Below are positions 657 to 11,945 of a DNA stretch of 64,000 nucleotides, piece after piece. The stretch lies in NCBI GenBank assembly GCA_943787575.1, contig CALSMY010000004.1, positions 1 to 64,000 on the forward strand, in the 5' to 3' direction. Both the position numbers and the translations under genes were made by a program. The stretch's first letter is position 1. Every line of letters begins with the position of its first letter. Origin of the DNA: an uncultured Opitutales bacterium. Lineage in GTDB: Bacteria; Verrucomicrobiota; Verrucomicrobiia; Opitutales; Seribacteraceae. The notes below the pieces were generated by a model. It did no database searches. It was not told the DNA's origin and saw only the letters and a list, made by a program, of their open reading frames with translations.

Positions 657-1496
657 ATGAAACGGATTTTCCAACTAAGTTTGTTTCTTATCTGTCCCCT
701 GCTTTGGGTTTACGCAGATATCGACCATGCCTACCTCGGGGTTCATACCACCCGGTTGGATCGCGGGACCAGTTATCAGTTGGGACTACCCCCAGGGGTA
801 CATCTACAAGTTGAAAGGGTTGCCCCGGGCAGTCCCGCGGAAGGGGCGGGGGTTAAGCTCTATGATGTTCTGCTCAAACTGGACGATCAATTATTGATCA
901 ATCCAGAACAATTAAAAACTCTGGTCCGGTTGCGCAACCCAGGCGAACGGATATCTCTTTCCATCTTGCGCCAGGCAAAACCACTCAGCCTGTCGGTTGA
1001 ATTATTGGAGATCCCCGAAAATCATCGGGATTCTTACGGGCGTGAAAGGATGAATCATCCCGATCCTTTCGATATCAATTCTTTATTTGGCCCCGGGGAT
1101 CGTATGAGGGACTTCTTTCGTCGGCATTCTTTTGATTTTCCTGACATTTCTAATTTTCAGGAGCAACACCTGTTTTCCGATCCACGCCAGCAGGGATCCT
1201 CTGTCCCCCCTTCCACCAGTCCGAAAATTCAGGATGATCCATTGCACGGGAATGGTTCTAATACTCAGAGTTATTCCTACTCTTCTTCCACCCAACAAAT
1301 TACCCTAAGTGATGGAGAGGGCAGTTTGCAATGGACGGAAAAAGACGGCTTGCGCTTTTTACGGGCTACCGATTTGGAAGGGCGGGTATTGTTTGAGGGT
1401 TCAATTTCTTCGGATGAGGATAGGAAAATGCTTCCCCCTCGGGTCAGGGATCGTTTACAAGCTATGCAAAAGTCCGGACAGATCCCCCGCGATTGA
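657..1496 (+). CDS. secreted PDZ-domain protein
   Basis: This 279-residue protein has an N-terminal signal peptide (KRIFQLSLFLICPLLWVYA, cleavage near residue 20). One PDZ domain follows at about residues 25-120: LGVHTTRLD at the start, then VAPGSPAEGAGVKLYDVLLK as the carboxylate-loop and helix core. There is no HtrA-type trypsin domain upstream of the PDZ, so it is not a protease by itself. The remaining 160 residues are Ser/Gln/Asp-rich and low-complexity, with no recognisable domain. It is probably a periplasmic peptide- or C-terminus-binding adaptor. It lies directly behind the anti-sigma-like gene, which suggests a role in sensing envelope stress. That role is inferred from position only. 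Confidence 0.7.
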   Translation: MKRIFQLSLFLICPLLWVYADIDHAYLGVHTTRLDRGTSYQLGLPPGVHLQVERVAPGSPAEGAGVKLYDVLLKLDDQLLINPEQLKTLVRLRNPGERISLSILRQAKPLSLSVELLEIPENHRDSYGRERMNHPDPFDINSLFGPGDRMRDFFRRHSFDFPDISNFQEQHLFSDPRQQGSSVPPSTSPKIQDDPLHGNGSNTQSYSYSSSTQQITLSDGEGSLQWTEKDGLRFLRATDLEGRVLFEGSISSDEDRKMLPPRVRDRLQAMQKSGQIPRD

Positions 1497-1681: not shown

Positions 1682-2670
1682 ATGAAAAAATTCGTTAGTT
1701 TCTTCCTCAGCCTAGCTTTTGCAGGCTCTACATTCGCGCAAATGTCTGGATACAGCACCAGCCAGTCCGACGGCACCACACTCGGAGCCAACGAGACCCT
1801 TACTGCAGACGGGATCGCCCTTGGTAATGCGGTTAAATTGCGTGGGTATGTGGATTTTGTTTCACGTATGAGATTCAGATGCAGCTAACAGAATGAACAA
1901 TTCACACTACTGACGATATCGATCTTTTATCGATCTTTCTCCTGTTACTGCTGAAGTCACCTTAATGCTGTCAGAAGCAATGCTGCCGATATTCTCGAAC
2001 AAGCTTTTGGTCGCTACAGTTTCAATCAAGACTTTCATCTTACATTTGGTCGTCAAGTCACCGTTCTTAGGTTTTGATGCAGATGAAGCACCTGATTGAT
2101 ATGCTGTAACACGAGCCTTACAGTGGAGATTCTGCTCAACTAAACTCGGAAACTTATGTCGATGGATTCGTTTAAATTACAACAATGGAATGTTTGGTTT
2201 ATTTTGGTTTGCATGACTGTATGGTTACATGACCGGATTCTGATGATGATAGACGGATTGCTATTGATATTGCTGCATCCGTTATGTTTTTTCCTGGCTT
2301 GAAGCTCGCTTGGATTTGCTAATGAAAATGGTGGCTCAAATCGATGATGCTCAGCAAATTAACGGCTTGGATTGCTTGGAATCCCAGACGCCTTAACTTT
2401 AGCTATGAGTTTGACTACATTTGATTTCGCAGATGATACCGATGCTTGGGATATGATGCTTCTTGCTAACTATCAGTTCTCTGATTTCTTTGGTGCAACC
2501 TTCGTTACTCTCACTGATGGATGTTGAGTCATCTGGAAGTCTGATCGTATTACCTTTGCCTTCTTTTCAGCATCACCGAAAATTTCGATATCAATGTTGA
2601 GTACAGCCACTACGATAATGACGGTGCTGACGATGATGAGTTCTATTTGCAAGCACTTCTCTCTTACTAA
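1682..2670 (+). pseudogene. indel-shredded outer-membrane beta-barrel (porin-like) gene
   Basis: The first 60 codons are clean: signal peptide FVSFFLSLAFAGSTFAQ, then a mature start. After about 1850 the reading frame changes more than ten times, yet each frame segment still reads as good protein. Examples are IDLSPVTAEVTL, NAADILEQAFGRYSFNQD, FHLTFGRQVTVL, SGDSAQLNSETYVDGF, DAWDMMLLANYQFSDFFG and finally SITENFDINVEYSHYDNDGA through to LQALLSY and a TAA at 2668-2670. Alternating aromatic/polar strands and a C-terminal aromatic residue are typical of outer-membrane beta-barrels. The intact product would be about 330 residues. The damage is almost all small indels with few obvious substitutions. 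It is therefore either a very recent hyper-indel pseudogene or a locally bad consensus, for example from strain-variable porins collapsed in assembly. Confidence 0.7.
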
Positions 2671-2688
2671 ATAACTTTAATCTTTTTA

Positions 2689-2723
2689 AAAGCCCCGTTG
2701 GTATATACCAACGGGGCTTTTTT
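2689..2723 (+). terminator. strong rho-independent terminator
   Basis: A perfect 15-bp inverted repeat (2689-2703 and 2706-2720, core GCCCCGTTGGTA) with a 2-nt apparent loop runs into a T run at 2718-2723. It lies 18 nt after the final stop of the damaged beta-barrel gene. Such a strong terminator fits a highly expressed monocistronic porin. Confidence 0.9.
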
Positions 2724-2845: not shown

Positions 2846-4325
2846 ATGAAGAACGCACCTAAACCAAGCAAGGCATTGCTCAAACAGATTGAGGAGCAGG
2901 GTGATGAACTTGCTTACCTTCAACGAAAGTGCAAGGAGCATGGTATACCCATCCTCATTCTAGTCGAAGGACTGAGCGCGGCAGGGAAGGGAACCCTGAT
3001 CAATCGAATTATCCAACCGCTTGACCCTCGTGGATTCAAGGTTTCCTGCATTGCCTCGCCCAGCCGGGACGAACAACTTCGCCCTTTTCTCTGGCGCTTT
3101 TGGAGCCGTACGCCAAGCACTGGTCGGATTGCCATCTTTGACCGGAGTTGGTATCGAAACCTGCTCGATGCCGATATTGATAAGCGAATGAGCGAAACGG
3201 GACTTGCCCGTGCCTATGAGGATGTACGTGCCTTCGAGCGTCAATTACGGGACGGGGGTACAATCATTCTTAAATTCTTCCTCGAAATTTCCAAGGAGGA
3301 ACAAACCACCCGTTTAGCTGCCTTGCAGGCAAACCCGGCAACCGCCTGGCGGGTGGACGATGCGGTGCTCCAACGCTTGGACCGCTATAAGGAATACAAC
3401 GATGCTGTTACCCGGATGTATCGGGAATCGGATACAGATGCACCCATACCTTGGATTAAGCTTCAGGCAAAGGACAGTTATCAGGCAACTGCCAATGCCC
3501 AGAGGGTCATGATCGAGGTGCTGGGAAAAAGAGTAAAACTTGCCAAGAAGGATGGGTTTTCCACTCCTAAGCCAAATAAGCCTGTTCCTTTGCCTCACTT
3601 TTCCAATGCTCCCAAGCTCAGGGATGTTGATCTTTCTTCCAGTCTTTCCAAAAAAGAATACCTTAAACTAATCGAAGAGAAGCAGGCAAAGATACATGAC
3701 CTGCACTACGAGATGTACCGCCGGCGCGTTCCCATGGTCATCGTTTATGAGGGCTGGGATGCTGCAGGGAAGGGGGGGAATATTCGCCGCTTAACCGCCC
3801 GGATGGATCCACGTGGCTATGAGGTCATCCCGGTGTCGGCCCCCAATGATATTGAAAAGTCCCATCACTACCTTTGGCGTTTCTGGTCGGAATTTCCCAA
3901 GGCTGGACACCTTGCGATCTATGATCGTTCCTGGTACGGTCGGGTACTGGTCGAACGGGTGGAGGGATTTTGTAAGGAATGGGAATGGAAGCAGGCCTAT
4001 CGGGAGATTAATGAGATGGAAGAAAATTTCGTTAATGCCGGTACTATTCTGGTTAAATTTTGGATGCACATTGATCAGAAGGAACAACTCAAACGCTTCA
4101 AGGCACGGGAAGTAAGTCCTAATAAACGATGGAAACTTGGAGATGAGGATTGGAGGAACCGTGAAAAGTGGAAACCTTACGAAGAAGCGACCAACGAGAT
4201 GTTCATGCGTACCCATTCCTGCTCATGCCCCCTGGACCATTATTGAAGGGAATTGTAAACGGTTCGCACGTATCCGTGCCTTGGACACTGTGATCGAGGC
4301 AATTGAACAGCGCTTTTCCGAGTAA
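2846..4325 (+). CDS. polyphosphate:AMP phosphotransferase-like double PPK2 (frameshifted near 4215)
   Basis: Two tandem PPK2 domains transfer phosphate between polyphosphate and nucleotides; the two-domain form is known in the family as polyphosphate:AMP phosphotransferase. Domain 1 (about residues 10-230) has Walker A EGLSAAGKGT, then LDPRGFKV, LWRFWSRTP and FDRSWYRN. Domain 2 (about 275-490) has EGWDAAGKGGNIRRL, MDPRGYEV, LWRFWSEFP and YDRSWYGRVLVERVEG. Each domain keeps the Walker B-like DRSWY. The frame breaks between about 4210 and 4220: one frame ends at 4246, while a neighbouring frame continues as HAPWTIIEGNCKRFARIRALDTVIEAIEQRF to a stop at 4323-4325, which is the expected C-terminus. 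The reconstructed product is about 492 residues, normal for this family. The break is probably a one-base sequence error. It stands alone between a terminator and the polyol operon. Confidence 0.85.
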
Positions 4326-4483: not shown

Positions 4484-5800
4484 ATGGCTTCTGCGACATC
4501 TATTTTACCCGAAAAACTTCACGAATATCCTCAACAAGATGTGATCGACGGTTCTACCGGATCATCTGCTTCGATTCTTGATGACTGCCTTAACCAGAAC
4601 GATGGAGTGTTGCAACTTATGCACCGTTATGCGGGCAGAACTTTTTGTAGCCCAGGTAAACGATTGCGCCTGGATGAAGAATCCTACCATCCCGATTATA
4701 TGGGAGGTACAGGTCTGGATGAGATCTGGATGGGTTGTACGGTTCCCATCGTTACCGGTGTGATCGATACACGTACTGGCAAAGCTCCGTATCGTGAAGG
4801 AGAGTCCCATGTTCTCACCCCGGGTGGACAGGTTATTTCCCTGCAGGATTTAATTGCAGCCAATCCGGAGACGGTGATGGGAGAGAAAGTCACCGCCTTT
4901 TCGAAAGCGTTGTACGGGGATCCAACCTGGCCGATTGTGTCCAAGAAATTCGACAATTTAAATCCGATTCCTCATCACCTCCACTGGTCCAAGTGGGAAG
5001 TTTACGATATCAATTCTTTTGATAATCCAGGCGTTTGCCCGTCGCATTATCATACCACTGCCATGGGGCTGTACCCCTTTGTGTCGAAGGATGATTTTCT
5101 TGCCTGTATGAAAAGTTTTGGACAGGGCGAGTATAATGGAGTTCGGCATTTATCCCCGCATGTAATGATGCATTTGGACAATGGTTTTGTTATGCCCAAC
5201 GGTGTATTGCATTCGCCCACCGACCTTTGTACCCATGAGGTGCATGTTACCATGGATGAACACTTCCTTGCTGAAGACCTGACACTTGATGGCCAAATCG
5301 GAGCAGCTGATGCCTTTTATGCATGCCGCGAAGAGGACTACCCGAAGGACAAGCATGAGAACTGGGAATACCTCGTAGAAAAGTTCGATTTCGAAGCCAA
5401 TCAGGATCCAAATTTCGTCCAGAAGAATTCCCGCCCGGCAATCACCGCAGAAGAATTTGCTGGAGATGGAGTGGATGCCAAGTGGATTGTATACGGTAAT
5501 TTCCTCGGTGATCAAAAGGTATCCATTCTTCGCCTCACCCTGGCACCTGGTGCCAAGACCAACTTTAGCCCGGAGTGCCCCACACTTTTCCACACCAATG
5601 GCGGAAGTGGCCGGGTAGGAAAGTTAGCGGTCAATTACCATCAAAATATGGTTCTCGGCCAACTCTATCCAGAAATCGGATTTGTTACCCAGGCTGCCCT
5701 GAATAATGGTGGTGTGGAAATTGAGAATACGGGTTCGGAACCACTTGTTCTGACCTTTGACTTTCCACAGAGTGCACATTCCCAAACCCCTGGTGCTTAA
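4484..5800 (+). CDS. cupin-fold protein, possible sugar(-phosphate) isomerase
   Basis: A 438-residue soluble protein with no signal peptide. It looks like a bicupin: a His cluster CPSHYHTTAMG at about residues 185-195 and further His-rich strands (SPHVMMHLDNG, MPNGVLHSPTDLCTHEVHV) at about 225-260 could bind a metal. A second jelly-roll-like half (residues 330-435) contains VSILRLTLAPGAKTN. I do not recognise a named family. A sugar or sugar-phosphate isomerase role is inferred from the fold and from its place at the head of a polyol-type gene run (PfkB kinase, polyol-phosphate dehydrogenases, aldolase). It is followed by a 214-nt gap, so the kinase behind it may have its own promoter. Confidence 0.55.
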   Translation: MASATSILPEKLHEYPQQDVIDGSTGSSASILDDCLNQNDGVLQLMHRYAGRTFCSPGKRLRLDEESYHPDYMGGTGLDEIWMGCTVPIVTGVIDTRTGKAPYREGESHVLTPGGQVISLQDLIAANPETVMGEKVTAFSKALYGDPTWPIVSKKFDNLNPIPHHLHWSKWEVYDINSFDNPGVCPSHYHTTAMGLYPFVSKDDFLACMKSFGQGEYNGVRHLSPHVMMHLDNGFVMPNGVLHSPTDLCTHEVHVTMDEHFLAEDLTLDGQIGAADAFYACREEDYPKDKHENWEYLVEKFDFEANQDPNFVQKNSRPAITAEEFAGDGVDAKWIVYGNFLGDQKVSILRLTLAPGAKTNFSPECPTLFHTNGGSGRVGKLAVNYHQNMVLGQLYPEIGFVTQAALNNGGVEIENTGSEPLVLTFDFPQSAHSQTPGA

Positions 5801-10613: not shown

Positions 10614-11945
10614 ATGGCCACACCCGTTATTATGCCCCGCCAAGGACAATCGGTGGAGAGTTGCATCCTGACCGAATGGAAAGTGAATGTAGGAGACCAA
10701 GTCGCCGAAGGCGATGTGCTCGCAGTTATTGAGACAGACAAAGCAAGCTTTGACCTCGAGTCGACTGCCTCTGGATCGGTGCTCGCTCTCTTTTGGGAAG
10801 CCGACGACGATGTACCTGTACTTGCCAATGTTGCTGCCATTGGAAATGAGGGAGAAGATGTTGAAGAATTTCGTCCGGAAGGACAGGGTGGAGCCTCGGC
10901 TCCTGTTGCGGAGGCACCCACTCCTGCAGCGGCTGATTCCACAGCTCCGAGTGCCGCGGCCCGACTGCCGCGGCTCCAGTTGCTGCTGTTGTACCCGCGG
11001 GTGGGTCTCTAGTTGCAAGTGCCGGAGTTAGCCCACGGGCTCGACGCCTGGCTCATAAACATGGGATCGATCCAGAGTCTCTGCCTGGCAGTGGCCCCGA
11101 AGGCCGGGTGATCGAACGCGATATCGAGGCCGCAATTAGTGGACGCCCGCGGCTTTCCGCCACTGCTCGTGCACGCTCCCTTTCTGAAGACTTAGAGCGT
11201 CCTGCCCGGGGAACCGGACTTGCAGGCATGGTGCGTTCCCAGGACCTTAAGGTTCCCGGCTCGGTGGAGGGTGCAGAAATCTCAGCGGTCAAGGGTATAC
11301 GCAAGGTCATTGCCGAGCGGATGATTGAGTCCTTACAGACCACCGCCCAACTTACTTTGCAGGCATCCTTCGAACTGACCAAGGCACAGGCGTACCGCAA
11401 GGAACGTTTGGATGCAGGACAGTCCAAGGTTTCATTGAACGATGTTATCGCCCATGGAATTATCAAGACCTTGGCTGAACATCCAGAAATGAATGCCCAT
11501 TTCCTCGGTGACCGGATTGCCACTTTTGAAAAAGTTCATCTCGGCGTGGCAGTGGATACACCCCGCGGATTGCTTGTGCCGGTAATCAGTAATGCATCTG
11601 ATCTTTCCATTGAACAGGTCTCTGCCGAGGTTAAGAAATTGGCTGGAGCTTGCCGCGAAGGCACGATCTCTCCGGATAATTTAACTGGGGGTTCCTTTCA
11701 CCCTGACCAATTTGGGAATGCTCGGTGTGGAAACCTTTACTCCCGTGCTTAATGCTCCTGAAGTTGCCATCCTGGGTGTTGGCGGAATTGTCCTTAAGCC
11801 CAAGCGTACCGAGAGTGGGGAGGTCGAACATGTCGACACTTTGCCCTTGAGCCTGACTATTGACCACCAGGCGGTGGACGGTGCACCAGCTGCCCGTTTC
11901 CTTCAATCTTTAGTTGAGCGCCTGGAAAACACTCCAGGTGCCTGA
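10614..11945 (+). CDS. 2-oxoacid dehydrogenase E2 (dihydrolipoamide acyltransferase), two apparent frameshifts
   Basis: Domains in order: lipoyl domain (residues 1-80, lipoylation site ETDKASF, Lys about 43), an Ala/Pro-rich linker, a peripheral subunit-binding domain ([20 protein letters not shown], then [11 protein letters not shown]), and the catalytic acyltransferase domain ending in DHQAVDG (usual consensus DHRxxDG). The frame is lost near 10960, where one base appears missing in a CCC run in the linker. It is regained near 11700, where an extra C turns the expected [14 protein letters not shown] into a shifted frame. The two changes compensate. The rest of the protein is well conserved, so sequence error is likelier than inactivation. 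An AAGGAGA Shine-Dalgarno lies about 18 nt upstream. E3 and E1 follow, so the operon encodes a whole complex. The acyl substrate is not determinable. Confidence 0.85.

Follow-up and report, generated by a model that had tools for sequence, protein, structure and literature searches.

A porin gene in an uncultured Opitutales bacterium, deposited so broken that it cannot be read in one frame, probably does not correspond to a genuinely damaged gene. The damage was likely produced by a mixed-strain consensus of a hypervariable porin, the gene itself being ordinary and intact in the cells. The frame changes coincide with an allele-swapped core, as set out below.

The window analysed here comprises bases 1 to 64,000 of a contig of 107,990 bases, from a genome (G000; 2.1 Mb, 20 contigs, 85.7% complete). 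The porin was compared with 13 related loci from a porin-profile scan, one genome per species (11 full length, 2 cut by contig ends), in assemblies of Opitutales and other Verrucomicrobiota, mostly metagenome derived. The genus comparison covered four of the seven other genomes of the genus (G003, G005, G006, and G007); in G001, G002, and G004, neither porin DNA nor the polyphosphate kinase 2 (PPK2) gene was matched, and matches to the PDZ gene were weak only. In the genus genomes that carry it, the porin gene is located between the PDZ gene and PPK2 (Table 1). Downstream, a one-base insertion in PPK2 relative to G007 (window position 4223) alters the last residues and resembles a background assembly error, and a 438-residue open frame (4484-5800) had no Pfam match at an E value of 0.01.

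Table 1. Features of the porin locus in window coordinates
Feature	Position	Strand	Remarks
PDZ-domain protein gene, intact, upstream neighbour	657..1496	+	90.5% DNA identity to G007
Porin gene, frame broken	1682..2670	+	Single copy in genome; BBP2-like, with a 16-stranded general-porin fold predicted
Porin 5' part, undamaged	1682..1870	+	Signal-peptide-like start (by eye), conserved N-terminus
Porin core, hypervariable and damaged	1871..2564	+	Every detected frame change; divergent core counted from 1861
Terminator-like hairpin, intact, 15 pairs, then T-rich tail	2688..2721	+	Common to relatives
PPK2 gene, downstream neighbour	2846..4246	+	92.5% identical to G007 (DNA); a single shift of background type close to its 3' end

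Frame damage and signs of retained selection

No long open frame spans 1682-2670. Frame-aware alignment to a profile of the 13 relatives (default penalty) needed 16 frame changes to read this stretch as one porin, and a five-sequence profile needed 18. Eight penalty settings were applied; the count was 15 to 21 at six of them, and the two harshest gave 8 to 9, with 4 in-frame stops left over. The changes all fall in 1871-2564, about one per 40 nt; over the first 190 nt the frame stays open and the sequence is conserved. An earlier sequence-only reading had described more than ten small indels over the whole of 1682-2670; their number is confirmed, and their extent holds for the core and not for the clean first 190 nt.

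The porin scored 1,196 in this alignment, compared with 617 to 637 when 1871-2670 was shuffled (n = 5) and 1,452 to 1,646 for intact relatives (n = 11). Of the 83 residues that all 11 full-length relatives share, it keeps 76, changes 4, and has no codon for 3, in agreement with the earlier observation that each segment still reads as porin; the terminator, also reported there as intact, is present. To the nearest relative, 215 of 308 porin residues are identical (30% differ), a figure that is not a count of substitutions in this gene, for which a same-species intact copy would be needed; of the few substitutions put forward in the sequence-only reading, what stands is that the conserved residues survive. 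The comparison with intact homologues that the same reading had called for showed all 13 relatives to be free of internal stops and, by the method applied to the window, the 11 full-length ones to be free of frame changes.

These results bear on whether the gene is a true pseudogene with many accumulated indels. The deposited sequence is broken and is the sole copy in the genome, as such an account would have it, but we consider it improbable, given the 76 retained residues, the intact relatives, and the codon-position pattern. The ratio of third-position to first-plus-second-position differences was 0.9 to 1.26 for the porin (four relatives) and 0.9 to 1.09 for intact pairs of similar distance (n = 5), with one closer intact pair at 3.67; the porin thus patterns like the intact pairs and unlike a gene free of selection. 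Some 16 indels alongside selection-like substitutions are not the usual course of gene decay. From the retained residues and the codon-position pattern, relaxed selection was not found for the porin, and the argument first made from the letters alone, that this is not an old pseudogene, holds.

A divergent core between conserved neighbours

Identity to G007, also profiled along the locus in 60-nt steps, was 89.3% over the 5' part of the porin (56 codons, 1682-1860) and 60.3% in the core from 1861. The core is closer to G003, G005, and G006 (66.5 to 67.5%) than to G007. For the flanks, G007 is the nearest by far, at the identities given in Table 1 versus 66 to 70% (PDZ gene) and 77 to 80% (PPK2) in the other three; the flanking genes differ from G007 at about 8 to 10% of DNA positions, with hardly any indels. 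Core and flanks have different nearest relatives, so that the history of the core differs from that of its surroundings, as after allele exchange.

We tentatively propose, at a little under even confidence, that marine Opitutales carry a porin whose barrel core recombines as an allele cassette. The core would move between species while the flanks stay fixed and the 5' end and terminator stay conserved, several alleles would exist side by side in one population, and local clusters of indels in metagenome genomes would point to surface genes of this kind. A resemblance exists to the metagenomic islands of Salinibacter ruber, where passages of PMC2800850 likewise place a variable surface locus between conserved neighbours and attribute the surface variability to phage pressure. 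The present locus differs from the islands described there in that alleles are exchanged inside one gene, rather than an island holding different genes, and there is no phage evidence here.

The same swap of the core between lineages within conserved flanks could be taken to favour a real hypervariable locus that functions in its broken state, for instance as a store of fragments for recombination or as a silent copy. This is very improbable: no second, expressed copy occurs in the genome, the porin retains its own start and terminator, and the intact relatives at the same place have no such organisation.

Assembly background and probable consensus damage

Background damage was measured against G007. 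Isolated, clean single-base shifts numbered 11 in 122,824 coding bp, and 7 of 113 whole G007 genes (a count that leaves out the porin itself) were broken in the sampled fifth of the genome, each by one or two shifts (two or three frames). The open-frame count was preferred to shift density by divergence, because noise in the alignment of diverged genes pushes the density up. The sequence-only estimate of about one frameshift per 8 kb is near this measured rate. One background break lies in the window, where a 441-residue G007 gene (10614-11942) is readable only in two frames, with a largest piece of 237 residues; three further genes (G000 contig C4, 75578-78622 and 95219-96492; L055 and L056) are likewise split, with two or three frames needed to read them against G007. 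On another contig, a gene of 731 amino acids (C6:76875-79055, in L117) is intact though only 60% identical to G007, and divergence between species alone therefore does not predict damage. The genes beside it (C6:75568-76865 and C6:79160-80357) are 90 to 91% identical to G007 (largest piece), and each is broken across two frames.

The residual single-base shifts elsewhere in the assembly would also fit a local sequencing or polishing failure, with few or poorly mapping reads, in a sample of a single allele. Few polishing reads could be drawn to a diverged locus, and parts of PMC9426551 report open reading frames fragmented by uncorrected indels at low short-read coverage. We nonetheless regard such a failure as unlikely, because no damage is seen in the two genes that lie closer to the end of the contig (8-1496) or over the first 190 nt of the porin, and because clustering within 700 nt, with edges matching those of the allele-swapped core, calls for a sequence-linked cause.

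A mixed-strain consensus, the account that we favour, would run as follows. The porin core (about 1861-2690) would be hypervariable, with lineages trading alleles of it while the flanks stay conserved. Strains that differ in their porin allele would have been present in the sample, and the metagenome assembly, in its consensus step, would have merged these alleles or been unable to correct them, so that some 16 spurious indels were left in the core. The variability might, at a guess, reflect selection for surface variation, by phages for example. The sequence-only reading had offered a collapsed consensus or a real hypervariable locus as alternatives; we favour both together and add the swap of the core inside conserved flanks, the collapse being the part that we infer.

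Merging of alleles suffices to give such damage in a toy test, in which a consensus was taken by majority over 12 noisy reads aligned with MAFFT (not an assembler). A single allele gave 0 to 2 frame changes (8 runs), two 60%-identical alleles gave 7 to 16 (4 runs), and three alleles gave 5 to 10 when noisy (8 runs) and 3 when noiseless (4 runs). The toy consensuses had 0 to 2 changes in the first 189 nt and the window has none there, which we count against collapse. Passages of PMC8302730 and PMC9426551 describe long-read assemblers that merge strains into consensus contigs, with leftover indels that break open reading frames. The porin resembles the strain-oblivious long-read assemblies treated there in that conspecific strains would have been merged and frames broken by indels; it is unlike them in that the damage is limited to one 700-nt core and is not genome-wide.

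A collapsed consensus would be expected to place indels at variable third codon positions. Single-base gaps in the porin fell at third codon positions in 6 of 7 cases, which is not significant because a random-indel null already gives 0.39 to 0.60; the notion of doubled SNPs, with both wobble alternatives written in succession, was abandoned, since alignment alone puts 39 to 60% of gaps at third positions. Among isolated background insertions, 5 of 8 were compatible with a doubled third base, which is the chance level (2/3).

No second porin allele or copy was found elsewhere in this genome's assembly. Of the four other genomes of the genus with this locus, two have contig breaks in or beside the porin: two ends fall within the porin in G006, and in G005 one falls within the porin and one within the PDZ gene. 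Over the 13 relatives, contig ends lay within 1.5 kb of the porin in 7 (expected, 3.75; P = 0.02), within 1 kb in 5 (P = 0.10), and inside it in 2 (P = 0.30), a weak test in which distances were entered by hand, with placeholders for far ends.

Porin family and implications

The nearest Pfam family of the porin relatives is BBP2 (PF07642; putative beta-barrel porin-2, OmpL-like), matched at an E value of ≤0.01 by 7 of the 13 (best, 2.3e-10) and not by the other 6. Scored on intact relatives and not on the whole broken gene, L078 reached 27.0 bits against the curated cut-off of 26.2 bits, and L076 and L080 had no BBP2 match. The structure modelled for L076, an intact relative, contains 16 strands at modest confidence (mean pLDDT, 55.8) and aligns with OmpF/PorB/OmpK36-type chains at Z scores of about 19 to 20 over 253 to 284 residues; in sequence it is unlike the general 16-stranded porins (OmpF, PorB, and Omp32), with 7 to 16% identity in the structural alignments. 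A 16-stranded general-porin fold is thus predicted for the family, from the model of this relative and not of the window gene. Searching PDB sequences with the porin profile yielded no informative match (3 rows; best E value, 0.037), and with NCBIfam, two of three proteins gave one match each, below the cut-off. The gene was named in no paper title found by literature search, and the abstract of PMC10542722 concerns a different outer-membrane protein of Verrucomicrobiota.

The porin itself is a further member of an already known type of protein. Its deposited state is a warning that fragmentation does not by itself make a gene of a metagenome genome a pseudogene; it can instead mark a variable gene beyond consensus representation. 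If the core is indeed an exchanged allele cassette, phages or grazers would be candidate sources of pressure on the porin in this marine group, of which few members are in culture.
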